From IMG/VR virus record IMGVR_UViG_3300029893_000034, positions 1-38,692 of that record: DNA of 38,692 bases. One strand, given 5' to 3'. Positions 7,258-30,862 of this stretch are shown here, piece after piece (position 1 is the stretch's first letter; each line of letters begins with the position of its first letter). The stretch is from a virus. The translations under genes and the position numbers were made by a program. The notes beneath the pieces are model-generated. The model worked only from the letters and a program-made list of their open reading frames with translations. It made no database searches and was not told the origin of the DNA.

Positions 7258-7259
7258 CC

Positions 7260-7916: not shown

Positions 7917-7962
7917 TGGCAGAGAGCAAGGCAGAGACATAGGAAAGGACAGAGGAAACAGC

Positions 7963-8700: not shown

Positions 8701-8710
8701 TCGGATCCAG

Positions 8711-8762
8711 GTGAACCCCCGGGGGCAGACTTCCCGCCCTACGAAGGCCCCCGGGGGTTCAC
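8711..8762. terminator. Perfect 16-bp inverted repeat upstream of dnaN
   Basis: GTGAACCCCCGGGGGC (8711-8726) is followed after a 20-base loop by its exact reverse complement (8747-8762). Each arm is itself rich in the palindromic CCCCCGGGGG. It lies between the stop at 8700 and the dnaN start at 8788. There is no T-run on either side, so it is not a classical intrinsic terminator. It could be a Rho-independent-like stop, an mRNA-stabilising hairpin separating two expression levels, or an origin-associated structure beside the sliding clamp gene. Confidence 0.75.
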
Positions 8763-8787
8763 ATCTCAGAGGGACTGGAGAGTGAGT

Positions 8788-9918
8788 ATGCAGACAGCCA
8801 TGCAGATCACAGTGGACCGATCCGCCCTGCGTCGGGGCGTCGAGATGGCGGCGCGCGCGGGCTTCCTCGTGCTGATCGAGGCGGGCGCCTCGCTGACGGT
8901 CGAGGGCCGCGGGCACGAGTGCACGTTCCGGACGATCGTGCCGGCCGAGGTGCACGCCCCCGGCCGGGTCGTGTTCGACGCCGCGATCCTGCGCAACCTG
9001 ATCTCCCACCTCTCAGACGAGCCGATCCGGATCGAGTACTCCGGAAACGAGCGGGTGGTGAACTCCAACGGATCCCGAGTCCCGGCCGCCGTGGTGCGGC
9101 AGGGGGCGCGCATGAAGATCCAGGTCGTCGACCCCTACTCGCTGCCCGAGGCGTGGCCTTCGCCGAGCGGGACCGACTCCCGGATCCTGCGCGCCGCGCC
9201 GACGGATCTCGCCGCGGGGCTGCGGCAGGTGGTCTACGCCCACGCCACCGACGGCCACGAGATGTGGTCGGCGGTGCACGTCCGCGACGGCGGAGATCGG
9301 CTGCTGGCACTCTGGGCCACCAACGGCCACCGCCTCGCGCATACGACGGTCACGGGCACCGCCACCGGTGATCGGCCAGAGGCGATCGGGATCCCCCGGG
9401 CCGCCCTGCCCGCCGTGCAGGCGCTGATCGCCGACGCCGCGGGTGAGGTGGTCGAGGTCGTCGCCGACGCGCTGCACCTGGAGGTGCACTGCGGCGTGGA
9501 CGTGGTGCGTGCGGCGCGGATCGACTGCGGCGTGGACTTCCATCGCGTCGTCCCCCAGGGAGTGCCGGCGCACGCGATCACCGTTGGCGTGGCCGAACTC
9601 GTGGAAGCCGTCCACCGCGTCAGGATCTTCGACGAGGGCAAGATGTTTCTGGCCGTCCCCGACGCCCAGACGCTGAAGCTCACGACCTCGAGCCCGGTGC
9701 TCGGCGACGGCGAGGACATGATCACCGCCGAGGTCCTCGGCACGCCGTCCGAGGATCGGATCGTCCGGCTGTCGCCGAAGTACCTCAAGCAGGCGCTCGG
9801 TGCGATCAGCTCGAGCAAGGTGGTGATCAAGGTGTGGGATCCCGAGCGGCCGGTGCTGATCGCGCCGGTCGAGGGCCCCGGCATCCACGTGATCATGCAG
9901 CTCGGTGAGAAGCGATGA
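8788..9918 (+). CDS. dnaN: DNA polymerase sliding clamp (beta subunit-like)
   Basis: A 376-residue protein with the three-domain layout of the bacterial beta clamp (typical length about 370). Visible markers: an early MQITVDRSALRRGVEMAARA, the first-domain strand RVVFDAAILRNLISHLSDEP, ALWATNGHRLAHTTV (matching the clamp ATDGHRLA signature), IGIPRAALPAVQAL, and the C-terminal RLSPKYLKQALGAI, then PVLIAPVEGPGIHVIMQL (matching the PxLI...yvIMPxR end). It forms a ring that tethers DNA polymerase to DNA. ATG 8788 is preferred over GTG 8782 because GGAG (8777-8780) is seven bases upstream. Its stop overlaps the next ATG (9915). A phage-encoded clamp beside a family A polymerase is unusual and suggests a custom processivity factor. 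Confidence 0.92.
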   Translation: MQTAMQITVDRSALRRGVEMAARAGFLVLIEAGASLTVEGRGHECTFRTIVPAEVHAPGRVVFDAAILRNLISHLSDEPIRIEYSGNERVVNSNGSRVPAAVVRQGARMKIQVVDPYSLPEAWPSPSGTDSRILRAAPTDLAAGLRQVVYAHATDGHEMWSAVHVRDGGDRLLALWATNGHRLAHTTVTGTATGDRPEAIGIPRAALPAVQALIADAAGEVVEVVADALHLEVHCGVDVVRAARIDCGVDFHRVVPQGVPAHAITVGVAELVEAVHRVRIFDEGKMFLAVPDAQTLKLTTSSPVLGDGEDMITAEVLGTPSEDRIVRLSPKYLKQALGAISSSKVVIKVWDPERPVLIAPVEGPGIHVIMQLGEKR

Positions 9919-11690
9919 CCGCCGAGATCCAGACCGTGGCGGTCGCAGACCTCGTGCTCGACGCGAGGTTCCAGCCGCGGAGCGAGGTCTACCGACCGGA
10001 CGTGATCGAGGCGATGGCGGCCGAGGGCAGGGCCCGCGGCGAGGCGTCTGGCTGGTGCGCGACGCTCTACGATCCGATCCACGTGTGGCAAGGGTCCGAC
10101 GCCCGCCTCTACGTGCTCGAGGGCTTTCACCGCTCCGCTCTCGCCCAGCACACCGGGCAGACGACGATCGCCGCGGTCGTCCACCGGGGGATCCCCGAGG
10201 AGGCAGCGCGGGAGCTCGCCGACCGTAGCAACCTGAAGGCGCGGCCGATGGACGCGATCGAGGAGGCGGACGCCTACCGCCGCGCCCTCGAGGCGGGCAA
10301 GTCGTCCGACGAGGTGGCCCGGGCGTTCGGCTGCCGGACGGCGGGGCATGTGGATCGGCGCGTGACGCTGGCGTTCCTGGCGCCGCGGCTGCGCGAGGAC
10401 GTCCAGCGCCGGATGCTGCCGATCGACTACGCCGAGGTGATCGGCCAGGCCGCGCGGGACGGGGCGTCGCCGGCGTTCCAGTCGCGCCTGGCCGAGGTCG
10501 CCCGGACGACGAAGGCCCGCGTCGACCTGTTCCGCCGGCTTGTCGCGGTCATGGTCGCCGAGGCCAAGCAAGGCCCGGCCCGGCCCGGGCAGGACGTGGG
10601 CCTGGCGCTGTTCGACCTCGAGGCGCTGACGGACACGTCGGTCTCTGCGGCGACAGAGGTGCTGTCGCGGGCGGCGCAGAGCGCGGGGATCCGGGACGGC
10701 TGGGACGAGATCCTGCGCACCGTCCGGGCCCAGCTCCGGCGGATCGACCGGTCCGGGGCGGAGGCGCCGCCGGCGCTTGCGGGCCTGCTGGCCGAGGTGG
10801 ATCGGCTACGGTCGGAGGCCGATCGGGCGGTCGCGGCGGCGCTCGGCGAGGACGTCGGTGGGGTCCGCGAGGCCAAGCCTTACCTGAAGTGGGTCGGCAG
10901 CAAGGCCAGCGAGGCGCCGATCCTCTTGCCGCTGATCCGCGAGCGCATGGCCGCGGGTGGGCGCTACCTCGAGCCGTTCATGGGCAGCGGGGCGGTGTTT
11001 TTCGCCCTCGCGCCCGCGCGGGCGGTGCTGAACGACGCCCTGGCGGAGCTGATGGCCTGCCATTGGGAGGTTCGGAACGACGCGCAGGCCGTCCACGCCG
11101 ACCTGCAGACCTTGATCGCCCGGGGCACGCACAAGGACGCCTACCTCGAGATCCGCGGCGAGTGGAACGACCGACAGGCAAAGGGTTACACGGGCGTCGA
11201 GGTCGCGGCGCGGACGATCTACCTGAACCGCACCGGCTTCAACGGCCTGTACCGGACGAACAAGGCGGGGGGCTTCAACGTGCCCTGGGGTGATCGGGCC
11301 AACCCGGCCTGGCCGACGCTCGGCGAGCTCGTGCGCGCCGGCGAGGTGCTCGGCGGGGCCGACCTGCGCTGTGGGGACTGGAACGAGGTGGTCCGCGAGG
11401 CGGGGCCGGGCGATGTGCTGTTCGTCGATCCGCCCTACCCCGGGATGTTCGACGGCTACGCCGGCGCGGCCTCGCACGTGGACGCGGCCGACGTGGGCAA
11501 GGCGCTCTACGCCGCTTGGCAGCGCGGGGCCGGGGTGGTCTGCACGTACCCCGCGAGCACGGCCAACGCCTTCGAGGTGTGGTGCGATCGCGTGCCGCTG
11601 GATCGGCGGACGGGTGTGGCGGCCTCCGCCGGGGCCCGGGGCCGGCTCGATCAGGTCGCGTGGGTGTCGCGGATCGGAGGTGGCCGGTGA
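9915..11690 (+). CDS. ParB/Srx-like domain fused to a Dam-type N6-adenine methyltransferase
   Basis: Residues 1-200 are ParB/sulfiredoxin-like: IQTVAVADLVLDARFQPR, then LYVLEGFHRSALAQ (the GxHRxxA motif), EEAARELADRSNLK and a helical partner. Residues about 315-591 are a D12-class adenine methyltransferase: PYLKWVGSK (KWxGGK SAM motif), YLEPFMGSGAVFF (FxGxG), a region with LNRTGFNGLYR, and the catalytic LFVDPPYPG (DPPY). Length 591 against about 270 for Dam alone confirms a fusion. The ParB part may bind or use nucleotides to steer the methylase, which is inference. ATG overlaps dnaN's stop. Probable role: modification of phage DNA or replication marking. Confidence 0.85.
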   Translation: MTAEIQTVAVADLVLDARFQPRSEVYRPDVIEAMAAEGRARGEASGWCATLYDPIHVWQGSDARLYVLEGFHRSALAQHTGQTTIAAVVHRGIPEEAARELADRSNLKARPMDAIEEADAYRRALEAGKSSDEVARAFGCRTAGHVDRRVTLAFLAPRLREDVQRRMLPIDYAEVIGQAARDGASPAFQSRLAEVARTTKARVDLFRRLVAVMVAEAKQGPARPGQDVGLALFDLEALTDTSVSAATEVLSRAAQSAGIRDGWDEILRTVRAQLRRIDRSGAEAPPALAGLLAEVDRLRSEADRAVAAALGEDVGGVREAKPYLKWVGSKASEAPILLPLIRERMAAGGRYLEPFMGSGAVFFALAPARAVLNDALAELMACHWEVRNDAQAVHADLQTLIARGTHKDAYLEIRGEWNDRQAKGYTGVEVAARTIYLNRTGFNGLYRTNKAGGFNVPWGDRANPAWPTLGELVRAGEVLGGADLRCGDWNEVVREAGPGDVLFVDPPYPGMFDGYAGAASHVDAADVGKALYAAWQRGAGVVCTYPASTANAFEVWCDRVPLDRRTGVAASAGARGRLDQVAWVSRIGGGR

Positions 11691-13081
11691 CGGACTACCT
11701 CGACTTCATCGCGCGCAAGGCCGTCAAGGCGACGCCGTCGGGCTTCGCGGCCGGCCCGATCCTGACGCCCCTGTTCCCGTTTCAGCGGCAGTCCGTCCAG
11801 TGGGCCCTCCGGCAGGGCCGCGCGGCCCTCTTCCTCGACACGGGCCTCGGCAAGACGCGCTGCCAGCTCGAATGGGCCCGGCAGGTCACCGACCAGACCG
11901 GCCGGCCCGTGCTGATCCTGGCGCCCCTGGCGGTCGCGCAGCAGACCGTCCGGGAGGCACGCGCCTGCGGCCTCGGCGGCGTCGGCTACGCCACCGACGC
12001 GGGCGCCGTGGCGGGCCTGCGGACGTGCGTGACCAACTACGAGCGCCTCGGGCGGTTCAACACGGACGCGTTCGGCGGGGTCGTGCTGGACGAGTCTTCG
12101 ATCCTGAAGGCCTACAGCGGCACGACCAAGCGGCAGATCCTCGAAGCGTTCGCGGTGACCCCGTACAAGCTGGCGTGCAGCGCGACACCAGCGCCGAACG
12201 ACCACCTGGAGCTGGGCAACCACGCCGAGTTCCTGTCGGTCATGTCGTCGCACGAGATGATCGCACGCTGGTTCATCAATGACACGTCGCAGTTCGGCAC
12301 GTACCGGCTCAAGGGGCACGCCGTCGAAGACTTCTGGGATTGGGTGTCCTCGTGGGCGGTCATGGCCTCGCGGCCGTCGGACCTCGGCGACTACGCCGAC
12401 GAGGGCTACGTGCTGCCCGCGCTACAGACGCACGTGCACACGGTGGACGTGAACCTCTACGCCGACGAGGGCAGCCGCACGCTGTTTCGGCAGGTCGAGA
12501 TGAACGCCACCTCGATCCACGCCGAGCGGCGGCGGACGGCGGCCGACCGGGCGGCGCGCGTGGCCCAGCTCGTCGCCGCGGAGCCCGAGGAGTGCTGGCT
12601 CGTCTGGTGTGAGACCGACTACGAAGCCGACGCCCTCATGGCCGCGCTCGGGTCGGCGGCGGTCGAGGTCCGCGGATCGGACTCGCTTGCGCAGAAGGAG
12701 GATCGACTCGTTGGGTTCTCCGAGGGTCGGATCCAGGTTCTGGTTACCAAGCCCAAGATCGCAGGGTTCGGCCTCAACTGGCAGCACTGCGCCCGGGTGG
12801 CGTTCGTCGGCGCCACGTTCAGCTTTGAGAGCTACTACCAGGCGATCCGGCGCACCTGGCGCTTCGGCCAGCGGCGGCCCGTGCATGTGCACGTCGTGAT
12901 GGCCGAGACCGAGCGCCCCGTCTGGGCCGTGCTCGACCGCAAGCGGCAGGACTTCGACGCCATGAAGGCGGCCATGTTCACGGCCGCGCTGCGCAACCGG
13001 CAGCGGGTCGCGGCCTCGGGCCGCTACCGCGCTGCGACGCCGATGGCGCTGCCCATCTGGCACCGGAGGAGGGCGGGATGA
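11687..13081 (+). CDS. SNF2-like helicase (second copy, methyltransferase-associated)
   Basis: A 464-residue SF2 ATPase: an N-terminal Q-like region LFPFQRQSVQWAL, Walker A LFLDTGLGKT near residues 50-58, Walker B VVLDESSILK near 132-141 (DESS rather than DEAH), motif III ACSATPAPND, and a C-terminal lobe with KPKIAGFGLNWQHC and motif VI QAIRRTWRFGQ. It lies between two DNA methyltransferase genes and overlaps both (GTGA at 11687 and ATGA at 13078), an arrangement often seen in phages and mobile elements. It could load or assist the methyltransferases or act in replication; this is inferred from position. GTG 11687 has GGAGG ten bases upstream. Confidence 0.85.
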   Translation: MTDYLDFIARKAVKATPSGFAAGPILTPLFPFQRQSVQWALRQGRAALFLDTGLGKTRCQLEWARQVTDQTGRPVLILAPLAVAQQTVREARACGLGGVGYATDAGAVAGLRTCVTNYERLGRFNTDAFGGVVLDESSILKAYSGTTKRQILEAFAVTPYKLACSATPAPNDHLELGNHAEFLSVMSSHEMIARWFINDTSQFGTYRLKGHAVEDFWDWVSSWAVMASRPSDLGDYADEGYVLPALQTHVHTVDVNLYADEGSRTLFRQVEMNATSIHAERRRTAADRAARVAQLVAAEPEECWLVWCETDYEADALMAALGSAAVEVRGSDSLAQKEDRLVGFSEGRIQVLVTKPKIAGFGLNWQHCARVAFVGATFSFESYYQAIRRTWRFGQRRPVHVHVVMAETERPVWAVLDRKRQDFDAMKAAMFTAALRNRQRVAASGRYRAATPMALPIWHRRRAG

Positions 13082-13965
13082 ACGTGCTGGATCAGATCCA
13101 TCGGCCGCAGTGGAGTCTCTACAACGGCGACTCCGTGGAGGTGATCCGGGGCCTGCCGGACCAGAGCGTGGACCTGTCGGTCTACTCGCCGCCATTCTCG
13201 TCGCTCTACACGTACTCCGCCTCGGAGCGTGACATGGGCAACGCGGCGAACGACGCCGAGTTCCTGGAGCACTACGGATTCCTCGTCGGGGAGCTGCTCC
13301 GGATCACTAAGCCCGGCCGCCTCTGCGCCGTGCACTGCAAGGATCTCGTGGACTACAAGGGCAGCGCCGGCCGGGCCGGGCTGCGCGACTTCCCCGGCGA
13401 TCTGATCCGCGTGCACGAGTCGAAGGGGTGGAAGTACCACTCTCGGTGCACGGTGTGGAAGTCGCCCGTGGTCGAGATGCAGCGGACCAAGGCGCACGGC
13501 CTGCTTTACAAGCAGCTCCGGTCCGACTCGACGTTCAGCCGCATGGGGCTTGCCGAGTACGTCCTCTACTTCCGGCGCTGGGCCGCCGAGGGCGAGGACG
13601 TCGTGCCGGTCACCCACACGCAGGACAGCTTCCCGCTCGCGCAGTGGCAGGAGTGGGCCTCGCCGGTCTGGATGACGATCGACCAGACGAACGTGCTCAA
13701 CGTCGAGCAGGCCCGATCGGACCGTGACGAGAAACACATGTGCCCGCTGCAGCTCGACCTCATCGAGCGGGTCGTGCGGCTCTACAGCAACGCTGGAGAG
13801 GTCGTGTTTAGCCCCTTCGCCGGCATCGGCTCAGAGGGTGTGGTGGCGCTCCGGTGTGACCGACGCTTCGTCGGCGTCGAGCTCAAGCCCGAGTACTACG
13901 CGCACGCCCTTCGCAACCTCGACGCTGCGGACCGTCAGCTCGGACTGTTCGGAGGTGTCCTGTGA
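13078..13965 (+). CDS. DNA N4-cytosine/N6-adenine methyltransferase (SPPF type)
   Basis: A 295-residue amino-methyltransferase with class-beta motif order: the catalytic SPPF (LSVYSPPFSSLYTYS, near residues 33-47) comes first and the SAM-binding FSPFAGIGSEG (near 244-254) comes late, followed by RRFVGVELKPEYY. An SPP(Y/F) motif favours N4-cytosine but also occurs in adenine enzymes, so the target base is open. It overlaps the helicase upstream and the polymerase downstream (GTGA). With the C5 enzyme at 462-1412 and the Dam fusion at 9915-11690, the phage carries three separate DNA methylases, which points to broad protection from restriction. Confidence 0.85.
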   Translation: MNVLDQIHRPQWSLYNGDSVEVIRGLPDQSVDLSVYSPPFSSLYTYSASERDMGNAANDAEFLEHYGFLVGELLRITKPGRLCAVHCKDLVDYKGSAGRAGLRDFPGDLIRVHESKGWKYHSRCTVWKSPVVEMQRTKAHGLLYKQLRSDSTFSRMGLAEYVLYFRRWAAEGEDVVPVTHTQDSFPLAQWQEWASPVWMTIDQTNVLNVEQARSDRDEKHMCPLQLDLIERVVRLYSNAGEVVFSPFAGIGSEGVVALRCDRRFVGVELKPEYYAHALRNLDAADRQLGLFGGVL

Positions 13966-16121
13966 GACCGATCGCGTTCGACACGGAGACCTGGTTGATC
14001 GCCCCGGGGAGGTTGGCGCCGCGGCTCGTCTGCCTGTCGTGGTGCGACGGCGCGGGCAACGGGCTGCTCGACCGGGACGAGGGCCTACGGTGGATCCGGG
14101 AAAAGCTCAAGGACCCGACCGTCGTGCTCGTCGGGCACAACGTGGCCTACGACTTCGGCGTGGTGTGCGAGGCCGACCCGAGCCTCCTGCCTCTGGTGTT
14201 CGGCGCCTACGACGCCGACCGCGTGATCGACACGGGGATCGTGGAGATGCTCCACCTGATCGCCCTCGGGCGCCTAGGGTTCGACCCGGCCCTCGGCCGG
14301 CCGCCGAAGTTCCGCCTGGCCGAGCTGGTCGAGAAGCATCTCGGCGAGAAGGTGGAGGGGAAGGAAGGGCCGGACGTCTGGCGCTTGCGCTACCACGAGC
14401 TCGACGGCGTGCCGATCGACACGTGGCCGGAGGCGGCGCGGGAGTACGCCCGGCTGGACGCGGCGTACACCTACCGGGTCGCTGCCCGGCAATACGATCA
14501 CGGCACGCCGGCGACGCTGGCGGACCAGTGCCGGGCGGCGTGGGCGCTGCACCTCATGGGCGCCTGGGGCCTGCGAACGGATCCCGAGGCCGTGGCGTCG
14601 CTCAAGGCGACGCTGACCGCGCACGTCGAGGCAGCGAACGCCAAGCTCGTCCAGGCCGGGCTGGTCCGGCCGGACGGCAGCAAGGACACGAAGGCGATCC
14701 AGGCCCGGGTGGTGCAGGCGTTCGGGCAGGACGTGATCGACTCCGACCCGAACCGGCGGACACCGGGCGGCGGGGTACGGATCGACGCGGACACCCTGCG
14801 GCAGTCGGGCGATCCGGACCTGCAGTTGCTGGCGGACATCGGCGAAGACGCGAAGGAGCTGAGCACGTACGTCCCGATCCTCGAGCGGGGCACCCGGCGG
14901 CCGATCAACGCGCGCTTCAACGTGCTCGTCGCCTCGGGCCGGACAAGCTGTCGGGGCCCGAACCTGCAGAACCAGCCGCGCCGGCCGGGCGTGCGCGAGT
15001 GCTACATCGCCCGGCCGGGCACCCTGCTCTGCTCGGTCGACTGGAACTCGGCCGAGATGCGCACGCTCGCGCAGCTCCTCGTCGACTGGTTCGGGCACTC
15101 GGAGCTGGCCGAGACCCTGAACGCCGGCCGAGACCCCCACCTGGAGACCGCGGCCCACCGCCTCGGGATCACCTACGAGGAGGCGGTCGCCAGGTACGAG
15201 GCGGGCGACAAGGAACTCGACGAGCACCGGACGCTGAGCAAGGCCGAGAACTTCGGCCGGCCGGGCGGCCTCGGCGACGACGCGTTCATCGCGTTCGCGC
15301 GCGCCACCTACGGCCTCGAGATCACCGCCGAGCGCGCGGCGGAGTCGAAGGCATCCTGGTTCGGCCGGTTCCCCGAGATGCAGTACTACTTCCGCGAGAT
15401 CAGCCGTCGGACGAACGAGGGCGGCGGACGGTTTACGTACGTGGTCGAGCGGACCGGGTTCGTTCGGGGCGACGTCGGCTACACCGACGGCTGCAACCAC
15501 GGCTTCCAGCACCCCGTCGCGCACGCCGGCAAGGCGGCCTGCTACCGCGTGGCGAAGGAGTGCTACCTCGGGGTGTGCTCCTGCGGTAACCCCTCGGCGC
15601 GTGCGCACTGCGAGGCCTGCGGAGGCACGGGCCGATCCCCGCTGTACGGCACGCGCCCGGTCGCGTTCATCCACGACGAGATCCTGGCGGAGGTGCCGGA
15701 GGCGACGGCGCACGAGGCCGCGCACCGCCTCGCCGAGATCATGCTGGAGGAGCTCAAGCGGCTCTGCCCGGACGTGCCGGTCAAGGCGGAGCCGGCGTTG
15801 ATGCGGCGCTGGTACAAGGGCGTGAAGACGGTCTACGACGAGCACGGGCGGCTTGTGCCTTGGGAGCCGAAGCGGCAGGAGCCGAAGCGACAGGAGCCGC
15901 AGCGGCAGGAGCCTGCGCCGGCCCCGCTCCTGATCGCTCCACCTTCGGCGCCTCTGCCCACAGCCCTGCCGGCCTGGCACGGCCCGGTGACGCCGGAGAA
16001 CCTGGACGCCTACGTGTCGGTGCACGGGCACGAGCCCGCGTTCCGGTACTACAACCTGGAGACGTACCGCGAGGCGGTGGCCGGGGCCGGCTGCCAGTGC
16101 CGCGGGGAGGTGACGCCGTGA
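13962..16121 (+). CDS. polA: Family A DNA polymerase with 3'-5' exonuclease
   Basis: Residues 1-190 are a DnaQ-like exonuclease: Exo I FDTET (Asp7, Glu9), Exo II GHNVAYDF, Exo III YARLDAAYTY. The polymerase domain has motif A SVDWNSAEMR (catalytic Asp360), motif B SKAENFGRPGGLG (Lys427, Phe431) and motif C FIHDEI (Asp near 571). In motif B the residue matching E. coli Tyr766 is Gly435. A Cys-rich insert (CSCGNP...HCEACGGTG, about 537-557) before motif C could bind zinc. After about residue 625 a non-family tail holds three EP(K/Q)RQ repeats, a proline linker and a small C-terminal domain. There is no 5'-3' exonuclease domain. GTG 13962 overlaps the preceding stop and has GGAGG upstream. This is the phage replicative polymerase, presumably held by the clamp at 8788. 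Confidence 0.92.
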   Translation: MRPIAFDTETWLIAPGRLAPRLVCLSWCDGAGNGLLDRDEGLRWIREKLKDPTVVLVGHNVAYDFGVVCEADPSLLPLVFGAYDADRVIDTGIVEMLHLIALGRLGFDPALGRPPKFRLAELVEKHLGEKVEGKEGPDVWRLRYHELDGVPIDTWPEAAREYARLDAAYTYRVAARQYDHGTPATLADQCRAAWALHLMGAWGLRTDPEAVASLKATLTAHVEAANAKLVQAGLVRPDGSKDTKAIQARVVQAFGQDVIDSDPNRRTPGGGVRIDADTLRQSGDPDLQLLADIGEDAKELSTYVPILERGTRRPINARFNVLVASGRTSCRGPNLQNQPRRPGVRECYIARPGTLLCSVDWNSAEMRTLAQLLVDWFGHSELAETLNAGRDPHLETAAHRLGITYEEAVARYEAGDKELDEHRTLSKAENFGRPGGLGDDAFIAFARATYGLEITAERAAESKASWFGRFPEMQYYFREISRRTNEGGGRFTYVVERTGFVRGDVGYTDGCNHGFQHPVAHAGKAACYRVAKECYLGVCSCGNPSARAHCEACGGTGRSPLYGTRPVAFIHDEILAEVPEATAHEAAHRLAEIMLEELKRLCPDVPVKAEPALMRRWYKGVKTVYDEHGRLVPWEPKRQEPKRQEPQRQEPAPAPLLIAPPSAPLPTALPAWHGPVTPENLDAYVSVHGHEPAFRYYNLETYREAVAGAGCQCRGEVTP
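15864..15908 (+). repeat. Three tandem 15-bp units in the polymerase tail
   Basis: Three near-identical 15-base units (15864-15878, 15879-15893, 15894-15908) encode EPKRQ, EPKRQ and EPQRQ. They form a flexible charged linker between the polymerase core and a short C-terminal domain, where a clamp-binding or partner-binding peptide could sit. Confidence 0.7.
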
Positions 16122-17936: not shown

Positions 17937-18625
17937 CCACCCACCGCCGCTACAGCCTGCGCGACTTCGCCGCCGCGTTCGGCTACGGCCTGGTGACGCT
18001 CCAGGGCTGGGCGCGCCGCGGGGTGGTGCCGCCGCCGGCGAGCCACTACGAGCGGCCGGCCGGGCGCGGGGGGCGGATCTACCTTGCCGTGCCGGAGGTG
18101 GTGCAGCCCGAGGCCCCGGTCGCGCCCCGGCGGGAGACGGCGGCGGAGAAGTCGGAAGCTCCTGCTGGAGATCGAGGTGCTGGAGAGACAACTGGCAGGG
18201 ACGAGCCCGGCGCCCGGGCGGCCGGTGGAGGACTGAGCATGGACACGACGGCGCTTCGGGACCGAGCGCGACGCGGCGACGCGCGGTTCAGCGAGATGAT
18301 CGCCCTCTGCGACGAGGTGGACCGCCTCCGCGCCCGCGTGGCGGAGCTGGAGGCGGAGCGCGACGCGCCCCTCGTCCGGCTCCGGCCGGGGCAGGTGGCG
18401 ATAACGGAGTGGCAGGGCTACTGGGTAGGGATCGCGACGGCGGGTGCGTACTCGACCGACGGCCGCTCGCTGCAGCTCGGCGCCGCCGCGAGCGGCCAGT
18501 GGAGGGTACTGGACAGCGACGCCGGCACGGTTTTGGCCTCCGACTCCGGCACCGCCCCCGACCTCGACGCCGCCAAACGCGCGGCCGAGGAGGCGGTCGT
18601 GCGGCTGGCGCGGGGGGAGTCGTGA
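17933..18625 (+). CDS. HTH protein joined in frame to the next gene, probably by a frameshift
   Basis: As sequenced, one frame runs from GTG 17933 (GTGA overlap) to 18625, 230 residues. Residues 1-50 look like a MerR/excisionase-style helix-turn-helix (YSLRDFAAAFGYGLVTLQGW, then ARRGVVPPP). Residues about 72-102 are low-complexity Gly/Ala/Glu. In the +1 frame the same DNA reads SRKLLLEIEVLERQLAG, then TSPAPGRPVED and stops at TGA 18234-18236, just before a proper gene start (ATG 18239, Shine-Dalgarno GGAGG). The natural HTH gene is therefore probably 17933-18236 with a one-base shift near 18122-18160, and the long frame an artefact or a recent fusion. HTH plus terminal coiled coil would suit a small DNA-binding regulator or terminase-small-subunit-like protein. 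Confidence 0.5.
   Translation: MTTHRRYSLRDFAAAFGYGLVTLQGWARRGVVPPPASHYERPAGRGGRIYLAVPEVVQPEAPVAPRRETAAEKSEAPAGDRGAGETTGRDEPGARAAGGGLSMDTTALRDRARRGDARFSEMIALCDEVDRLRARVAELEAERDAPLVRLRPGQVAITEWQGYWVGIATAGAYSTDGRSLQLGAAASGQWRVLDSDAGTVLASDSGTAPDLDAAKRAAEEAVVRLARGES
18239..18625 (+). CDS. Coiled-coil plus beta-domain protein (128 aa)
   Basis: ATG 18239 has GGAGG (18227-18231) seven bases upstream, making it a believable independent start even though the upstream frame is open into it. Residues 1-45 are helical with heptads (EMIALCDEVDRLRARVAELE). Residues 55-110 form short strands (RPGQVAITEWQGYWVGI, SLQLGAAASGQWRVLD, GTVLASDSGTAPDLDAA). The stop overlaps the csf1 GTG (GTGA at 18622), so this gene is translationally coupled to the CRISPR operon. 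No family is recognised; by position it may be the gene just ahead of the csf operon rather than part of it. Confidence 0.5.
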   Translation: MDTTALRDRARRGDARFSEMIALCDEVDRLRARVAELEAERDAPLVRLRPGQVAITEWQGYWVGIATAGAYSTDGRSLQLGAAASGQWRVLDSDAGTVLASDSGTAPDLDAAKRAAEEAVVRLARGES

Positions 18626-19428
18626 AACAACTCGACCTCCTATCCTACACGGCCCCCAGGCCCCCGCCGGAGCCGCCCGCGGTCCGCGCCGAGGCCCCGC
18701 CCCCCACGCTCTCCGGGCGCCTGTGGCTGGACGCGGGGCGGCCCAAGCCCCCAGGCGCCGGCGGCCCGGGCGTCTGCTACGTCTGCGGCTGGGAAGCGCC
18801 GGCGACCCTGCCCCGGCGCAAGGCCCTGTCGGACGTGTTCACCGCTCACGACCAGTGCGCTGCCACCGGCAGCGATCGCGTCTGCGCGGGGTGCGCGTGG
18901 ACGATGGGCGGCCGGAGCTCGGCGACGCTCCACACCTGGCGGCTCTACTGCGTGCTCTGGCGCGAGGACGGCGCCGTGCCCGATCGCATCCACCCGGCTG
19001 CGCCCGACGGCGGCACCCGAGCCTGGTGCGCCAACCGGAGCGACCTGCGGCCCCTCTTGCGCTGCCTGCTGGCCCCGCCGCCGTGCGCCTGGTCGGCGTC
19101 GTTCGCCGTCTCGGGCCAGGCGCAGTGCGTCCCGTTCGCGCCCCTTGTGCCGGCCGGCGGGCGCCCCCGGGTGCTGGTCGAGCGGAGCGTACTCGACGTG
19201 GCCGAGGCGCCCGTCCTGCTGCCGCACGTCGCGGCGCTGCGGGCGGCTGGCGTGGACGCCGACACGATCACGAGCGGGCGGCTGGACGCCGGGGCGTGCA
19301 TGCGCCTCGGGGCTGCCGCCCGCCGCCACCTGGACGCGCTGCGGACCCACCGCGGCGATCCTCTGGTCTACCTACTGGCGTGGGCGCTGAAGCGTGACCA
19401 CGCCGAGGAGTTCACCGATGACCGATGA
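18622..19428 (+). CDS. csf1: Type IV CRISPR-associated protein Csf1 (Cas8-like large subunit)
   Basis: A 268-residue protein with the Csf1 signature: a four-Cys zinc finger made of CYVCG (near residue 50) and CAGC (near 91), with FTAHDQCAATGSDRVCAGC between them. This matches the family pattern of CxxC, a basic loop, FTxHDxxAxxxSxxVCxxCxW. A short Pro-rich N-terminus precedes it. The rest is alpha/beta with further Cys. Csf1 is the small Cas8-like subunit of type IV complexes. Here it leads csf1-cas11-csf2-csf3-cysH, the gene set of type IV-B. GTG 18622 overlaps the previous stop; cas11 overlaps its 3' end by 11 bases. The call rests on the zinc-finger pattern and above all on the four genes that follow. 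Confidence 0.78.
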   Translation: MKQLDLLSYTAPRPPPEPPAVRAEAPPPTLSGRLWLDAGRPKPPGAGGPGVCYVCGWEAPATLPRRKALSDVFTAHDQCAATGSDRVCAGCAWTMGGRSSATLHTWRLYCVLWREDGAVPDRIHPAAPDGGTRAWCANRSDLRPLLRCLLAPPPCAWSASFAVSGQAQCVPFAPLVPAGGRPRVLVERSVLDVAEAPVLLPHVAALRAAGVDADTITSGRLDAGACMRLGAAARRHLDALRTHRGDPLVYLLAWALKRDHAEEFTDDR

Positions 19429-19792
19429 CACGCTGCGGAGCATGGCCGCGGAGGTGGTGCTGGCGGTGATGCGCGACGCCAGCACACAGAAGATCGACCC
19501 GCGCAAGTGGTGGGAGAGGGCGACGACGGCACTCCGCGCGGCGGCTAACGCGGCCGGATCGTGGAGCCAGTTCGCTTCCCGGCTCGCCCGCCACCTGCAG
19601 ATCGACACCTACAGCGCCGAGGGAGGGGCCAAGCTGGGGCACGTGGCGGAGTACCTGGGCAACCCGGCCGACCTGCGACGATTCTTCCGGTTGTGCCGGG
19701 AAGAGGCCGAGTGGATCATCGTGGAAGCGCGGGCGCTCCGAGACGCCATGCGTGAAGCACAGAGGGCAGAGCACGAGGGAGGAGCATCATGA
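19418..19792 (+). CDS. cas11: Type IV small subunit (Cas11-like)
   Basis: A 124-residue, almost fully helical protein between csf1 and csf2, where type IV-B operons place their small subunit. Helices visible: DDTLRSMAAEVVLAVMRDA, WWERATTALRAAANAAG, WSQFASRLARHLQI, LGHVAEYLGNPADLRRFFRL and a long last helix EAEWIIVEARALRDAMREAQ. Small subunits are poorly conserved, so the call comes mostly from size, fold and position. In known complexes Cas11 lines the backbone filament beside Cas7. ATG 19418 has GGAG seven bases upstream and lies inside csf1; the stop overlaps csf2 (ATGA). Confidence 0.6.
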   Translation: MTDDTLRSMAAEVVLAVMRDASTQKIDPRKWWERATTALRAAANAAGSWSQFASRLARHLQIDTYSAEGGAKLGHVAEYLGNPADLRRFFRLCREEAEWIIVEARALRDAMREAQRAEHEGGAS

Positions 19793-20793
19793 TCGACCGA
19801 CAGACCGGGCGCGTGGACCTGCGGGTCACGCTGCTGCAGCCATTCCACCACGGGGCAGGGAGCAGCGGCACGACCGCGATGCTCCGGACCAAGCCCGTGA
19901 TCGACCCCGAGACAGGCGAGCGGTACGACGTGCCGTACCTTTCGGCCAACTCGGTGCGCCATAGGATCCGGGCGTCGGCCGCCTGGCACGCGATCCGGAC
20001 GGCTGGGATCGATGACGGATCGCTGTCCCGCGGCGCCGTCCACCTGCTGATGAGCGGCGGATCGCTCTCGGCCACGGGCAGCTCGGTCAACCTCCGGCAG
20101 GCGCGGCGCCTCGCGGAGCTGGTGCCAGGGCTTGCCCTCATGGGGTTCAGCGCCGGCAACCGCATGCCGGCAGGCAAGCTGATGGTGTCAGACCTCGACC
20201 TGGTATGCGCCGAGAACCGCTGGCGGGCTCCCGAGGACGTGCGCGACGACGGCCGCTCCGGCACCCCGTTCGGCGTGTGGGTGGACGACTGCATGTCCAC
20301 CCGCAAGAGCCCGCTCGGGGACGACGACGTGCGGCGCCTGCTACCCGCCGCCGAGCGTGAGGCCCTGGACGATGACGCATCCAAGCGCCTCGCCAAGAGC
20401 CGCCGCGGCGAGCGGTCCGAGGGAGACCCTGAGAGCCTGCAGGCGATCTACGAGCACCAGATCCTGGTCACGGGCGCGGGATTCTGGGGTGACATCCACT
20501 ACCGCGGCCTCGACGCGCTCGAGCGGGCGGCCTTGGTGGCGGCCCTGTCCTGGTGGTGCATCGGGGAGCACGCCGACGGCCGGCCCCTGTTCCACCTCGG
20601 CGCCCGCGAGAGCCACGGGTGGGGCCGTGCGGCGATCGAGTTCCGCGGCGTGACGTTCGCCCGCCCTGCCGAGCGACCCTCGGACCTGCGGCCCGTGGCG
20701 CCCGGGGCCCGGCCGCCCGAGCTCGTCGCCTACGAGGAGCACCTGCGCGAGCACGCGGCCGAGATCCGCGCCATGCTGCAGGAGGCCGCATGA
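19789..20793 (+). CDS. csf2: Type IV CRISPR backbone subunit Csf2 (Cas7-like)
   Basis: A 334-residue RAMP/Cas7 protein. The N-terminus runs LRVTLLQPFHHGAGSSGTT, then a domain with PYLSANSVRHRIRASAAW, the PxxxxNSxRxxxR element of the Cas7 RRM fold, and later ALMGFSAGNRMPAGKLMVSD, YEHQILVTGAGFWGDIHY and HLGARESHGWGRAAIEF, a glycine-rich late element as in RAMPs. Length fits Csf2 (about 330-370). Csf2 polymerises along guide RNA to form the helical backbone of the type IV complex. ATG 19789 overlaps cas11's stop and has GGAGG upstream; csf3 overlaps its end. Confidence 0.82.
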   Translation: MIDRQTGRVDLRVTLLQPFHHGAGSSGTTAMLRTKPVIDPETGERYDVPYLSANSVRHRIRASAAWHAIRTAGIDDGSLSRGAVHLLMSGGSLSATGSSVNLRQARRLAELVPGLALMGFSAGNRMPAGKLMVSDLDLVCAENRWRAPEDVRDDGRSGTPFGVWVDDCMSTRKSPLGDDDVRRLLPAAEREALDDDASKRLAKSRRGERSEGDPESLQAIYEHQILVTGAGFWGDIHYRGLDALERAALVAALSWWCIGEHADGRPLFHLGARESHGWGRAAIEFRGVTFARPAERPSDLRPVAPGARPPELVAYEEHLREHAAEIRAMLQEAA

Positions 20794-21491
20794 GGGTCAT
20801 CATCGACCACGACCGGGGCACGCGCCCGCTCGCCATCACGGCGACGCTCGCCGAGCGGATCCTCGTGCGGATCGGGGACCTGCCGCAGATCGACGGCATC
20901 TTCGCCGTCCAGCGCCTCCGGATGCTTGGCGACGAGCGGCCCGAGCAGATCGAACGGCACGACCCGAGGCCCGCCGAGGTGGGGCTCCGGCTCGCCAAGT
21001 GGCGCGTGGGCGACCTGTGGGGCTACGTCGTGACTGAGCCGCTGCCGGTGGGCGAGGTCCGCTACGGCCGGGCCGAGATCCGGAAGATGCCCGACACCGA
21101 TGCGATGGCGGAGCTGACCGACGCCCCGTCCGTCACCGTCTCGGCGGGCGCGACCAAGGCCTACGACCTGACGCTGCCCACGGTGCAGTGCTCGGCGCTC
21201 AAGTGGTGGGTGATCGGCAAAAGCAAGGAGATCCGGCGGCGGTACCTGCGACTCGACGCAGAGGGCCGGAGCCAGGCCGTGCACTCCATCGGCAGCAAGC
21301 GCGGGCTCGGGTTCGGCCGCGTGCTCCGGTGGGCGGTGGACGAGGCGCCCGAGGTGGACGCGGACTGGATCCTCGCCCGGCGGTGGATGCCCGAGGGCTA
21401 CCGGGAGGGGCGGACTAGCCTGCGCGGGATCCGGCCGCCCTACTGGCACCCGGCGCGGCAGGTGACGTGCGTGGAGCCCGCGTGGGACTGA
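20790..21491 (+). CDS. csf3: Type IV CRISPR subunit Csf3 (Cas5-like)
   Basis: A 233-residue RAMP/Cas5-like protein. After an RRM-like N-terminus (RPLAITATLAERILVRIGDL), it has KWRVGDLWGYVVTEPLPVGE, a central LTLPTVQCSALKWWVIGKSK and a late glycine loop SIGSKRGLGFGRVLRW, the G-rich loop typical of Cas5/Cas6 RAMPs. The C-terminus carries LRGIRPPYWHPARQ. Cas5-type subunits cap the guide RNA 5' handle next to the Cas8-like subunit. ATG 20790 overlaps csf2 (ATGA) and its stop lies inside the cysH-like gene. Confidence is high as part of the operon and moderate alone. Confidence 0.8.
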   Translation: MRVIIDHDRGTRPLAITATLAERILVRIGDLPQIDGIFAVQRLRMLGDERPEQIERHDPRPAEVGLRLAKWRVGDLWGYVVTEPLPVGEVRYGRAEIRKMPDTDAMAELTDAPSVTVSAGATKAYDLTLPTVQCSALKWWVIGKSKEIRRRYLRLDAEGRSQAVHSIGSKRGLGFGRVLRWAVDEAPEVDADWILARRWMPEGYREGRTSLRGIRPPYWHPARQVTCVEPAWD

Positions 21492-22222
21492 TCCCGAGCC
21501 CTCGCCACACGGCGGCGGACCTCGCAGCCTGGGAGCGGTGGGCAGCGCTGGATCGGCGGCTAGCGCAGAGCCCGGCGCTCGCCCGGCGGGAGGCGGCGGC
21601 GCTGGATGCGCTGCGGACGTTCGCGGCGGCGGGGCCGTGCTACGTCGGCGTGAGCTGGGGGAAGGACAGCGTGGTGGTCGCGCACCTGGCGCGCCAGGTG
21701 TCGCCCGATCTGCCGCTCGTGTGGGTGCGCCTGTCGGAGGCGCGCGACAACCCCGACTGCTACGCCGTGCGCGATGCGTTCCTCGCGCGCTGGCCGGGCG
21801 AGTACCACGAGGTGTGGTCGGGGCACCAGGACGACGGCGGTCAACTCGCGACCGGCGCCCGACGCGGCGGTTACGCGGAGGCCGGCAGGCGGTTCGGCGA
21901 CCGCTACGTCTCGGGCGTTCGGGCCGACGAATCGCGCGAGCGGCGGCTGCGCGTGGCACGCTGGGGCGTGGCGACGGAACGGACCTGCGCCCCTCTTGCG
22001 CGCTGGTCCGGCGCGGACGTGTTCGCCTACCTCGAACGCTACGACCTGCCGATCCATCCGGCCTACGCCTGCACGTTCGGGGGGGCGCTGGATCGCTGCC
22101 GGATCCGGGTGGCGTCGCTCGGCGGCGAGCGCGGGACCGGACACGGCCGACAGGAGTGGGAGGCGGCGTACTACCGCGCCGAGGTGGCGGCGCTCGCCCG
22201 CGGGATCCGGACCACCAAATGA
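21482..22222 (+). CDS. cysH: CysH-like PP-loop ATPase of type IV-B systems
   Basis: A 246-residue adenine-nucleotide alpha-hydrolase (PAPS-reductase family). The PP-loop is YVGVSWGKDSVVVAHLARQ (SxGKDS form), followed by PLVWVRLSEARDNPDCY, RYVSGVRADESRERR and LARWSGADVFAYLERYDLP, all in family order. The catalytic ECGxH C-terminal motif of true sulfate-reducing CysH is not visible, so sulfate assimilation is unlikely. From published surveys I recall that cysH-like genes are the characteristic accessory of type IV-B loci, with unknown role. GTG 21482 is preferred to 21467 because GGAG (21473-21476) is five bases upstream. It overlaps csf3's stop and ends the csf operon. Confidence 0.82.
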   Translation: MGLIPSPRHTAADLAAWERWAALDRRLAQSPALARREAAALDALRTFAAAGPCYVGVSWGKDSVVVAHLARQVSPDLPLVWVRLSEARDNPDCYAVRDAFLARWPGEYHEVWSGHQDDGGQLATGARRGGYAEAGRRFGDRYVSGVRADESRERRLRVARWGVATERTCAPLARWSGADVFAYLERYDLPIHPAYACTFGGALDRCRIRVASLGGERGTGHGRQEWEAAYYRAEVAALARGIRTTK

Positions 22223-22413: not shown

Positions 22414-22782
22414 GTGACCGTCTACCGCCAGGACCCGGCAACGGGGCTACGGATCGCGCCCTCGTGGGCGTGCCCCGCGCCTATCGTTTCCGTCCGCCGC
22501 AGGCGCCCTACGCGGGGCTCGGGCCGGGAGGAGCGGGTCATCCGCGCCCAGGTGCTCGAGCGGCACGGCGGCCTCTGCGCCTACTGCGGGGTGGCCCCGG
22601 CAACGACGGTGGACCACATCCTGCCTGCCTCCCGGGGTGGCCCCTGGACCGCCGCGAACCTCGAGCCCGCGTGCGGGCCGTGCAACTCGGACAAGGGGCC
22701 CCTGCTCCCGGCGGAGTGGCTCGAGGTGCGGGCCGCTCGAGGGGACGCGCTCCCCAGTGGATCCTACTGGAGCCGGCCGTGA
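22414..22782 (+). CDS. HNH endonuclease (122 aa)
   Basis: A clear HNH fold: CAYCGVAPATTVDHILPASR (zinc Cys pair, catalytic-type DH), then GGPWTAANLEPACGPCNSDK (NL, the second Cys pair CGPC, and the N of the motif). The protein is 122 residues with a basic N-terminal region (RRRRPTRGSGR). Small HNH proteins act as homing nucleases, packaging nicking factors or effectors. Here it is the first gene after the type IV-B operon, so it could be a cargo homing nuclease that helps the island move, or a functional partner; neither is proved. The GTG start lacks a strong Shine-Dalgarno. Its stop overlaps the next GTG (22779). Confidence 0.85.
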   Translation: MTVYRQDPATGLRIAPSWACPAPIVSVRRRRPTRGSGREERVIRAQVLERHGGLCAYCGVAPATTVDHILPASRGGPWTAANLEPACGPCNSDKGPLLPAEWLEVRAARGDALPSGSYWSRP

Positions 22783-23538: not shown

Positions 23539-23877
23539 ATGCGCATCGAGACCCACAAGACGCAGTGGCTCGTGCTCGAGCTGCGCGAGCGACTGTTCCC
23601 GGGCGACGGCGGCGCACACGTCATCGACTACCACGTGACCCACGATCACGAGCCGCACATCGTGCTCGTGGGCCTGCTCGACGAGCCCGCCGCCTATCCG
23701 GCGGCGGCGCTGCGGGCGTGGCTCAACGAGACCAAGGCCGAGCCCGTGCCCGAGGGCGGCTGGCTCGCGGCCTTCCTGCGCGAGGTGACGCCGGCGCCGC
23801 CCACCGGCGGGCTCGGGCGGCGGGTGTGGAAGATCGTGCGCGTGCGGCTCGGGGGCTGGACGCCAGCAGGCTCCTGA
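23539..23877 (+). CDS. Unknown accessory protein (112 aa)
   Basis: ATG 23539 follows the acidic gene after three bases. The 112-residue protein has alternating strands and helices (QWLVLELRERLFPGDGGAH, HVIDYHVTHDHEPHIVLVG, YPAAALRAWLNETKAE), several His/Asp and a basic C-terminus (GRRVWKIVRVRLGG). The HVTHDHEPH stretch could bind metal, but it is not a known motif. It is followed by a 69-base gap holding the first copy of a 37-base direct repeat. No family is recognised. Confidence 0.55.
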   Translation: MRIETHKTQWLVLELRERLFPGDGGAHVIDYHVTHDHEPHIVLVGLLDEPAAYPAAALRAWLNETKAEPVPEGGWLAAFLREVTPAPPTGGLGRRVWKIVRVRLGGWTPAGS

Positions 23878-23895
23878 CGCCTGCGTGGGCGTCCC

Positions 23896-23932
23896 GAGGC
23901 GGCTCGGGGCGCTCGCGGAGTCGCACAGGCAC
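23896..23932 (+). repeat. 37-bp direct repeat, copy 1
   Basis: Positions 23896-23932 match 24198-24234 with three mismatches; the first 28 bases are identical. Each copy sits 14-16 bases before a start codon (23947 and 24250). In copy 2 it is inside a truncated HTH gene, in copy 1 it is non-coding. It looks like a segmental duplication that carried a gene's upstream region. Confidence 0.75.
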
Positions 23933-23946
23933 AAGGGGATCAAGCC

Positions 23947-24135: not shown

Positions 24136-24263
24136 CCCCCGGCGAAGAGATCCGCTGGATCCGGGACAAGCTCGGCTGGAGCCAGCAACGGCTCGGCGAG
24201 GCGGCTCGGGGCGCTCGCGGAGTCGTGCAGGTACACGCGGAGGAAACCCATGGCTGCGACTGA
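24132..24263 (+). CDS. Truncated Xre/Cro-type HTH protein (43 aa)
   Basis: Begins MTPGEEIRWIRDKLGWSQQR LGEAAR, the first two helices of a Cro/C1-type HTH (helix, turn, SQxxLxEA). It then runs into the duplicated 37-base segment and ends after 43 residues without the recognition helix and third helix. It looks like a regulator cut by the segmental duplication at 24198, or a mini-HTH that needs a partner. ATG overlaps the previous stop, and its 3' end overlaps the gene at 24250 by 14 bases. Confidence 0.5.
   Translation: MTPGEEIRWIRDKLGWSQQRLGEAARGARGVVQVHAEETHGCD
24198..24234 (+). repeat. 37-bp direct repeat, copy 2
   Basis: Second copy of the repeat at 23896-23932, 302 bases downstream. Here it overlaps the 3' part of the truncated HTH frame, and its end lies just before the Shine-Dalgarno CGGAGGAAACCC of the gene at 24250. 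Confidence 0.75.
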
Positions 24264-28911: not shown

Positions 28912-29667
28912 CTAGACCTTCGCCTTCCGGCGGGCCGTCGTCATCGCCCGGAAGATCGCGTCGGAGGCGCGCTTGTGCCACTCACGCTCGACCACTTGAC
29001 GGCTCTTGCCGTAGAGGTTCCACTTGTACTTGAGCCCCATGCGCACACGGCGCACGAAGATCCACAGGACCCGGGCCGGCGCGCGGCGCGGCTTCTGCCC
29101 GCGGCGCTTCTTGTACCAGGTCTTGTAACCGCGCTGGCCCTTGCGCGGGCCGCGCGAGATGATGCCCCGGATCTTCTTCTGCATGAGGGCGATCGCGCCA
29201 GACTTCATCTCCTGGAAGAAGTAGCCGTCGCGCATCTCCTTTTCACCCTGGGCGTTCTTGCTGTCGCCGATCACCTTGCCCGGCCAGTCCTTGCGCTTCA
29301 CGATCCGGCCCTTGGCCTTGCGCGCCTCGACCGGCACGTTGATCCGCTTGGCCCGGCCGGACGGCGATCCCCGCGCCTTGCCCTCGCCCGGCCGCCGCTC
29401 CCCGCCCTCGGCCTGCTCTTTCATGTACGGGTCGAGCGATCCCACCTCCGCTTCGAGGTTCTTCTTGGTCGAGGCATTCATCCGGATCCCGCCCTCGGTC
29501 CACTTGTTCCGGATCGTGTACTGGTCCCGGAGCGCTTCCTTGACCTCTTTGCGGACGTCGGCCGCGACCTGGTTGATTGCGTAAGACGTCGCGAAGGGGA
29601 TCTGGTTGCGCGCCAGTCTCAACGCCTTCTCGATGGACTTCAGGTTCGTCTCGACTGTGATCTTCAC
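28912..29667 (-). CDS. Possible minor tail protein (251 aa)
   Basis: GTG 29667 begins KITVETNLKSIEKALRLARN, then FATSYAINQVAADVRKEVKE, RDQYTIRNKWTEGGIRMNAS and TKKNLEAEVGSLDPYM. This resembles phage minor tail or tail-completion proteins that start with an AINxxAxxVRxE helix followed by NxFTxRxxWxxxGI and a LEAxVG strand. A very basic middle and end (GPRKGQRGYKTWYKKRRG, RKAKV) follows. It lies just downstream of the second baseplate J gene. Confidence in a structural role is moderate; no exact family. Confidence 0.5.
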   Translation of the reverse strand: MKITVETNLKSIEKALRLARNQIPFATSYAINQVAADVRKEVKEALRDQYTIRNKWTEGGIRMNASTKKNLEAEVGSLDPYMKEQAEGGERRPGEGKARGSPSGRAKRINVPVEARKAKGRIVKRKDWPGKVIGDSKNAQGEKEMRDGYFFQEMKSGAIALMQKKIRGIISRGPRKGQRGYKTWYKKRRGQKPRRAPARVLWIFVRRVRMGLKYKWNLYGKSRQVVEREWHKRASDAIFRAMTTARRKAKV

Positions 29668-29680
29668 AGCGCTACACCCG

Positions 29681-30823
29681 CTACACCCACGTGACCACGC
29701 CGAGGTGGATCGCCTGCCCGGCCGTGAGCGTCACGTTCGACAGCCCCGTCCCATCGCCCTGCACGCTATCGAGCGTGAAGACCTCCATCGTCTGGCCGAT
29801 CGTGTTGCGGATCTCGGAGTTGTAGAGCCGCGCCGACCCCACCGCGTACAGCGGATTCCTCACGTCCTTTTGCCGCCGCCGGTTGATCGCCGCACAGAGG
29901 GCGTGCAGGTCGTCCTCTACGGCCGCCCGGTCGGACGCGGTGTAACCGGCGCCGTCGTTGATCGTGAGCGTCAGGGCCACCGCCGCCGGCGCCGTCGCCG
30001 TCGGGTCCGCACCGATCGGCGCCCGGTCGTCGAGCTCCGCCTGGACCGTCGTCACCTGCGCGCCGGTCGGGATCACCGCCGCGCCCTCGCCCTCGACCGT
30101 GAAGTAGACGGTGAGCGGCACGGCCGTCGGGGTCGGTGCGACGCCGACCACCGATCCCTTGATCACCCACACCGCGTCCACGGCCTCGAGCGCCGCGCGA
30201 GCCCAGGCGCGATAGTCGTGGGCGGCGCCCCCATGCGGCGGGTTGCGCAGCCGGTCCACCCACCGATCGCGCAGCCCTTCGACTTCCTCCTGATCCACGC
30301 CGTTCGTGATCCCGGGCGCCTGGATCGCGCCGTTGCTGTCGACGCCGTCGATCGGCGACAGCAGGATGACAGAGGTCGCTGTGGTCGCGTTGCCCGCGCT
30401 CCCGGCGACCACCGCCTCGATCGGCGCGATGATCGTCCCGGCCGCCTCCGACGCATCGGCCGTCGTCTCGTACTGCACGCCGTCCGTGCGCTGCATCACC
30501 GTGCCCTCGGGGATCGAGGTGCCTGCGAGGGCGGCGAACACCGCGTTGCCGGAGGCCTTGACCGCCGCCTGCTGACGGACGCCGAACACCTTGGCGCCCC
30601 GGATCACGCCGGCATCGTCGGCCCGATCGGCGATCACCTGCCGGGCGATGAAGGCCGCGAGCGCGTGGATCGCGTAGCTCACCCCGGCCGTAACCCGCAC
30701 GAGCCCCCACTGCCACGACCTCGGGATCCCGGGGTCCTCGCCGGTCCTCGTGCGGAAATCGGCCGCGGTCCGCGCGACGATCGTCGCCCAGCTTGGCGTC
30801 TCGAATCCTGTGGTCACAGGCAT
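29681..30823 (-). CDS. Baseplate J-like protein, second copy (Mu gp47 family)
   Basis: A 380-residue protein of the baseplate J family, which forms wedge parts linking the tail to the fibres. Seen: N-terminal helical domain with RTAADFRTRTGEDPGIPRSW, a domain with GNAVFAALAGTSIPEGTVMQ RTDGVQY (the typical xxIPxGTxxxxxDGxxF strand), APIEAVVAGSAGNATTATSV, and the late domain RYGW-like WVIKGSVVG. The end GDGTGLSNVTLTAGQAIHLG VVTWV parallels the other copy (GDGTGLSDVT...ITWV). ATG 30823 has GGAGGGAG upstream. Two J-like genes in one tail module suggest duplication, with specialised copies or a switch. Confidence 0.82.
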   Translation of the reverse strand: MPVTTGFETPSWATIVARTAADFRTRTGEDPGIPRSWQWGLVRVTAGVSYAIHALAAFIARQVIADRADDAGVIRGAKVFGVRQQAAVKASGNAVFAALAGTSIPEGTVMQRTDGVQYETTADASEAAGTIIAPIEAVVAGSAGNATTATSVILLSPIDGVDSNGAIQAPGITNGVDQEEVEGLRDRWVDRLRNPPHGGAAHDYRAWARAALEAVDAVWVIKGSVVGVAPTPTAVPLTVYFTVEGEGAAVIPTGAQVTTVQAELDDRAPIGADPTATAPAAVALTLTINDGAGYTASDRAAVEDDLHALCAAINRRRQKDVRNPLYAVGSARLYNSEIRNTIGQTMEVFTLDSVQGDGTGLSNVTLTAGQAIHLGVVTWV

Positions 30824-30847
30824 GGGCTACACTCCCTCCGCGGTGCG

Positions 30848-30856
30848 TGCTACGCT
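30848..30856 (+). promoter_or_regulatory. Extended -10 promoter of the moron gene
   Basis: TGCTACGCT (30848-30856) is a TGnTAnnnT extended -10 element. Its end lies six bases before the ATG at 30863, where transcription would start, so the message is probably leaderless; no Shine-Dalgarno precedes the ATG. It lies in the 39-base divergent gap before the leftward J gene. Confidence 0.45.
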
Positions 30857-30862
30857 GGGCGC

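Follow-up and report, generated by a model that had tools for sequence, protein, structure and literature searches.

What can a CRISPR (clustered regularly interspaced short palindromic repeats) effector operon do for a tailed phage when no array is found beside it? The question is raised by five genes at positions 18622-22222, plus strand, of the IMG/VR-type virus record IMGVR_UViG_3300029893_000034, the whole of which (38,692 bases, linear) was analysed and is called the window below. The genes form a type IV-B effector operon, an identification that we regard as practically certain, and the operon is a further, previously undescribed member of this known subtype. In related loci, its fifth gene, cysH, is repeatedly exchanged for one encoding a radical S-adenosylmethionine (SAM) enzyme. 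The best explanation, taken whole and held with moderate confidence, is that this array-less phage-borne operon encodes a non-cutting scaffold for a modifying enzyme.

The five genes are consecutive open reading frames with overlapping ends in the order csf1-cas11-csf2-csf3-cysH, as described in the original prediction, which had been made from the bare sequence. The GTG start of csf1 (18622-19428) overlaps the stop of the upstream gene. Its 268-residue product, a type IV Cas8-like large subunit, matched PADLOC Csf1_0_IV at 2.5e-14 and carries the predicted four-cysteine zinc finger (CxxC...CxxC), which was also found in 36 of the 37 Csf1 proteins examined. The small subunit, Cas11 (19418-19792; 124 residues), matched Cas11_1_IV at 8.5e-8. 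Both csf2 (19789-20793; 334 residues) and csf3 (20790-21491; 233 residues) begin in an ATGA overlap with the preceding gene. Their products had been read as Cas7-like and Cas5-like repeat-associated mysterious proteins; in the hidden Markov model searches, they scored to type IV Cas families (type IV Cas7, 1e-59; Csf3_0_IV, 1.6e-24) and not to non-Cas families. The NCBIfam csf2 and csf3 models were matched at 6.5e-5 and 1.3e-11, below the curated thresholds (130 and 140 bits), and the two proteins are therefore divergent members. A profile built from seven Csf2 proteins, that of the window among them, reached the Csf2 filament backbone of the IV-B complex solved by cryo-electron microscopy (7jhy) at 4e-75 and extended to type III Csm3; the window Csf2 as a single query reached 7jhy at 6e-9. 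The glycine-rich loop foreseen in Csf3 is present and reads IGSKRGLGFGRVLRW. The last gene (21482-22222; 246 residues from GTG 21482, with an alternative start at 21467) overlaps csf3 and encodes the expected CysH-like PP-loop ATPase, with the motif SWGKDS and a match to PF01507 at 6e-11. Four independent type IV matches, the canonical gene order and the start-stop overlaps exclude a chance arrangement.

The exchange of the fifth gene is the finding that we consider worth pursuing. A hand-made DNA pattern built on the Csf3 glycine loop finds other csf3 genes: used alone on virus contigs, it retrieved 69 of them, with csf3 in 33 and the operon in most of these. In three loci of this sample (G013, G028, and G022), cysH was absent and a radical-SAM gene directly followed csf3, overlapping it. 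These genes matched PF04055 at 2e-12, 4e-7, and 6e-8, respectively, and their best matches were B12-binding radical-SAM families. The same gene occupies the cysH slot on the fragment L059. The sample thus contained cysH in 28 loci, the radical-SAM gene in four, neither in one (G023), and both in none. The hypergeometric P value for this exclusion is 1.2e-4, calculated on loci that are related to each other; across all 88 csf loci compared, the two genes never occurred together. We also searched with the radical-SAM motif RGCxxxCxFCELG, which holds no Cas information. It retrieved five virus contigs only, all of which have csf genes and lack cysH. The total is seven radical-SAM IV-B loci, all virus-borne (G013, G028, G022, L059, and L208-L210), with the B12-type genes in the place of cysH at L115:13411-14643, L118:335-1825, L047:9005-10546, L059:214-1683, L208:2823-4163, L209:2051-3358, and L210:8189-9559.

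Comparison of sister loci supports an exchange at this one position. The DNA of G013 and L160 is about 68% identical over the stretch that starts with the primase gene and closes with csf3; their Csf2 proteins are 78% identical, and the likeness resumes in the gene after the radical-SAM gene of G013. Between the matching stretches, G013 has the radical-SAM gene and L160 has cysH with some further sequence. On a tree of 86 Csf2 sequences, at least five switches across well-supported branches are needed to account for the identity of the fifth gene. How closely CysH resembles the window protein is only weakly correlated with how closely Csf2 does (rho 0.27), which also favours a modular fifth slot. 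In the stretches examined, no csf genes were found near the radical-SAM relatives of Streptomyces phage SF3, Microcystis phage MaAM05 and a Kitasatospora plasmid; specificity for IV-B thus does not extend to the B12 radical-SAM superfamily as a whole. The 2025 classification does not mention radical SAM (PMC12669027), and full-text literature searches, which did not reach the bulk of the subscription literature or two central type IV papers, yielded no link between radical SAM and IV-B. The exchange is likely to be new to the literature.

A search with the window-type CysH gave 16 genome loci and 48 virus loci, some of them the same element present in both collections, and 58 of the 64 have csf genes. 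Across 43 relatives, the GKDS motif and a G-R-E-R pattern are invariant, no cysteine is, and the conserved catalytic C-terminal cysteine of 3'-phosphoadenosine 5'-phosphosulfate (PAPS) reductases was not found. Since the ATP site is invariant and no cysteine is, CysH is probably an ATP pyrophosphatase rather than a reductase, as argued earlier for the plasmid protein (PMC8175902). The structural model of the window CysH (predicted local distance difference test score, pLDDT, 93) lies nearest to PAPS and adenosine 5'-phosphosulfate reductases and flavin adenine dinucleotide synthase, followed by the tRNA-modifying PP-loop enzymes NcsA, TtuA, and TilS, all with moderate template modelling scores. 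Its matches to PF01507 and to phage PAPS reductase families would also suit an unrelated metabolic PAPS reductase gene that came to lie beside the csf genes by accident. We consider this very improbable given the missing invariant cysteine, the near confinement of such CysH proteins to csf neighbourhoods and the overlap of cysH with csf3. The place of cysH varies among loci (L043, L135, and L138), between csf2 and csf3 in G019 and G031 and between csf1 and cas11 in G006. In some virus loci, csf3 is followed by a pair of CysH-like genes, one bearing SGGKDS and the other SWGKDS (L169:6267-8759, L173:5520-8732, and L180:6300-8753).

The csf complex itself probably does not cut. Asp42 in a loop of the Csf2 of Mycobacterium sp. 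JS623 has been put forward, as a proposal only, as an RNase residue (PMC7937560). According to the loop alignment, the corresponding loop of the window Csf2 reads HHGAGSSGTTAML and contains no acidic residue, while most, although not all, relatives keep the acid. This loop, together with the failure to find a nuclease or Cas6, makes cutting by the window complex improbable. The original prediction had rested its subtype on a gene set without DinG, and this was upheld: PADLOC detected no DinG, Cas6, Cas1, or Cas2 among the 15 window proteins. One helicase matched DinG at 17 bits, not above its scores to other helicases, and is a generic helicase. A Cas10-like large subunit is not present, Csf1 having only 268 residues. 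In a simple exact-repeat scan, the window showed no CRISPR array and the relatives none that was convincing; the window record is probably a fragment, and an array could lie past its ends. A non-coding RNA or array beside the operon was considered and rejected, as no Rfam family was found near the operon, the gap after cysH folded no better than most of its shuffled versions (z = -1.2) and the array scan was negative. An extra conserved neighbour gene was likewise rejected after clustering 7 kb on each side of 38 loci, where diverse loci share only the five operon genes.

With these results in hand, we propose a mechanism. By homology, Csf2 and Cas11 would most likely build a filament around a short RNA, and Csf3 and Csf1 would close its ends. 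The complex would then act as a scaffold for the fifth-gene enzyme and not as a cutter, and this enzyme may chemically alter the bound RNA or nucleic acid paired to it. In the window, the PP-loop ATPase would adenylate its substrate; in the sister phages, the B12-type radical-SAM enzyme would fill the same role. The phage could benefit through counter-defence or through competition with other elements. The original prediction had suggested phage-phage or phage-plasmid competition, or the taming of host defence, as possible roles. We infer the filament, the modification reaction and the benefit from sequence, and we regard the modification mechanism as plausible but somewhat short of probable. 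Both kinds of enzyme, PP-loop and radical-SAM, occur frequently in RNA modification. To our knowledge, nucleic-acid modification is the known mode of action of no CRISPR type. More tentatively, IV-B in general may be a filament that binds RNA and has a slot for interchangeable chemistry, that is, an RNA-loaded nucleic-acid modification machine of phages and plasmids.

Several points weigh against a modification scaffold. PP-loop and radical-SAM enzymes act on proteins and metabolites too, which makes the substrate a guess. The locus G023, on a terminase-bearing virus record, has neither enzyme; its csf3 is followed by a gene for a 240-residue protein (L211:7401-8123), which gave no family match and a single-sequence model with a pLDDT of 31. 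By eye, this protein had been suspected to resemble transglycosylases, an idea that was dropped when Pfam and PDB sequence searches gave no support. The evidence for the scaffold is drawn from sequence throughout. The solved IV-B complex bound mixed RNA with no visible specificity (PMC7937560).

This last property would fit a different function, in which the filament soaks up short RNAs, host CRISPR RNAs (crRNAs) included, and thereby blinds RNA-guided defence, with CysH as a helper. Such an RNA sponge, or anti-CRISPR, has already been proposed for the IV-B complex, which forms on a mixture of RNAs with a regular length (PMC7937560), and the acid-free Csf2 loop and the failure to find an array or Cas6 here are in keeping with it. 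We nevertheless rate it as possible but rather unlikely. A sponge does not explain the near-constant link to a catalytic enzyme with an invariant ATP site, or the replacement of CysH by an unrelated catalytic enzyme, and crRNAs were not enriched in the published complex (PMC7937560). The same lack of enrichment in the studied complex speaks against silencing with borrowed guides, where crRNAs or short RNAs of the host or of other elements would block transcription of matching targets, as in IV-A. The reach of the Csf2 profile across type III and IV effector complexes, the repression of targets without cleavage by IV-A (PMC11656645) and a mini-array in one archaeal virus IV-B (PMC10848311) argue for silencing; the array scans of the window and the relatives examined, and the failure to find DinG, argue against it, and we judge it unlikely. 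The modification scaffold is favoured because both the sponge and silencing leave a linked, replaceable catalytic enzyme unexplained.

The carrier of the operon is a tailed phage whose baseplate is Mu-like. The original prediction had placed it in a tailed-phage replication setting, and the record agrees. Upstream, on the same strand, Pfam searches identified a replication module (2262-16121) with a PD-(D/E)XK protein, two helicases, a sliding clamp, DNA methylases and a family A DNA polymerase; the operon is probably expressed together with these genes. Downstream, on the minus strand, lie tail and baseplate genes (28912-38535) that matched PHROG baseplate hub, wedge and tail families: Mu-like hub and wedge proteins, a tail fibre and two Baseplate_J proteins. 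The two baseplate-J-like genes (29681-30823 and 33998-35125) flank the tail fibre gene. The operon is followed on the plus strand by an HNH endonuclease gene (22414-22782; PHROG HNH, 1.6e-17), which is taken as context and not as part of the operon. HNH genes also lie after or near the IV-B operons of G013 (L115:15466-15876) and a Frondihabitans plasmid (L006:8917-9420), which may be chance; such genes are common in phages. Between the HNH and tail genes, a 73-base direct repeat (23874-23946 and 24176-24248) is 75% identical and spaced 302 bases apart.

No terminase was detected in the 38,692 bases of the record, which is therefore probably a fragment. These two traits, a linear fragment and no terminase detected, together with the fact that plasmids are the best-known carriers of IV-B, would be expected if the record were no phage or a mis-assembly of phage and plasmid. 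Against this stand the many tail genes and the related 51-kb record G013, which has PDDEXK, helicase and polymerase (PolA) homologues with 26-39% identity, as well as a terminase, tail genes on the minus strand and an IV-B operon of its own. As G013 joins the same backbone with all of these, a plasmid or chimera is unlikely, and so is the tail-gene mis-assembly considered in the original prediction. Terminases were also found in 20 of the 30 other IV-B virus records tested for them, selected by csf3 (18 matched a terminase PHROG, two of these weakly, and two more Terminase_6N), and a sequenced phage has the operon. We therefore hold a non-phage origin to be highly improbable. Three relatives of the window's DNA polymerase (L008-L010), all of them fragments, have no csf genes.

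That sequenced phage is Skermania phage SPI1 (KR011061), from wastewater, in which csf1-cas11-csf2-csf3-cysH are Orf40-44 (L219:3840-7473), labelled hypothetical. Array-less IV-B with CysH is well documented, chiefly on plasmids (PMC8175902, PMC9071438); type IV has been mentioned on some phages and prophages (PMC11656645), and virus-borne IV-B has been described in Bathyarchaeia viruses (PMC10848311). The earlier statement that IV-B is mostly found on plasmids agrees with this literature (PMC9071438) but understates its frequency on virus records, as the 33 csf3 contigs and 48 virus CysH loci show. These many virus-borne loci indicate that IV-B reaches beyond plasmids. The CysH genome loci belong mostly to Actinomycetota, and also to Myxococcota, Spirochaetota, Planctomycetota, Bacteroidota, and Steroidobacteraceae bins. 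In Csf2 trees, the window belongs to a supported clade that unites virus loci with loci on actinobacterial chromosomes and is separate from the actinobacterial plasmid clade. The window Csf2 alone is too divergent to match among the virus contigs, and tblastn against the phage collection gave no match; mixed Csf2 or Csf3 alignments offered no usable conserved stretch, or poor patterns. In IV-B plasmids of two haloarchaea and Rhodovastum (L002:9410-11748, L003:8861-12057, and L004:10050-12426), a ParB-domain gene lies close to the operon, and a second PAPS-reductase-family gene, of the DUF3440 type in two of them, is nearby.

In the literature, CysH is regarded as the key to what IV-B does (PMC7937560, PMC8175902). 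The exchange of CysH shifts the focus to the chemistry that both enzymes can deliver beside the Csf filament, and the repeated swap for a radical-SAM enzyme hints at chemical modification instead of cutting. As they differ at the fifth slot, G013 and L160 are a natural pair for comparison, and the complete operon in SPI1 is a possible system for direct tests if the phage can still be obtained.

Comparison with known systems places the window operon among its relatives. Type IV-A shares homologues of Csf1, Csf2, and Csf3 with it; IV-A has DinG, Cas6, and an array and lacks Cas11 (PMC8175902), whereas in the window the first three were not found and Cas11 is present. The IV-B loci of the Mycobacterium sp. 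JS623 megaplasmids (7jhy; PMC7937560) and related actinobacterial plasmids have the same csf1-cas11-csf2-csf3 order, no array and a CysH-like gene nearby, but they are plasmid-borne. The actinobacterial plasmids that we read have cysH upstream, on the opposite strand, and their Csf2 keeps the loop acid and forms a separate clade; the window cysH overlaps csf3 on the same strand, and the window Csf2 loop has no acid. In Fuxiviridae, a proposed archaeal virus family (PMC10848311), IV-B is virus-borne with CysH next to Csf3, as in the window, and is accompanied by a two-repeat mini-array, for which no counterpart was found here. A Cas4-like nuclease is encoded at another place in the genomes of these IV-B-bearing Fuxiviridae; the 787-residue PD-(D/E)XK protein of the window (2262-4625) has a weak Cas4-like match (8e-5). 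Phage SPI1 resembles the window in carrying the complete operon in one run on a tailed phage, although it is too distant for a tblastn match of Csf2. The radical-SAM IV-B loci have the same csf complex, and the window's nearest Csf2 relatives include two of them, G013 and G028, but the fifth gene of these loci encodes the B12-type radical-SAM enzyme where the window has cysH.

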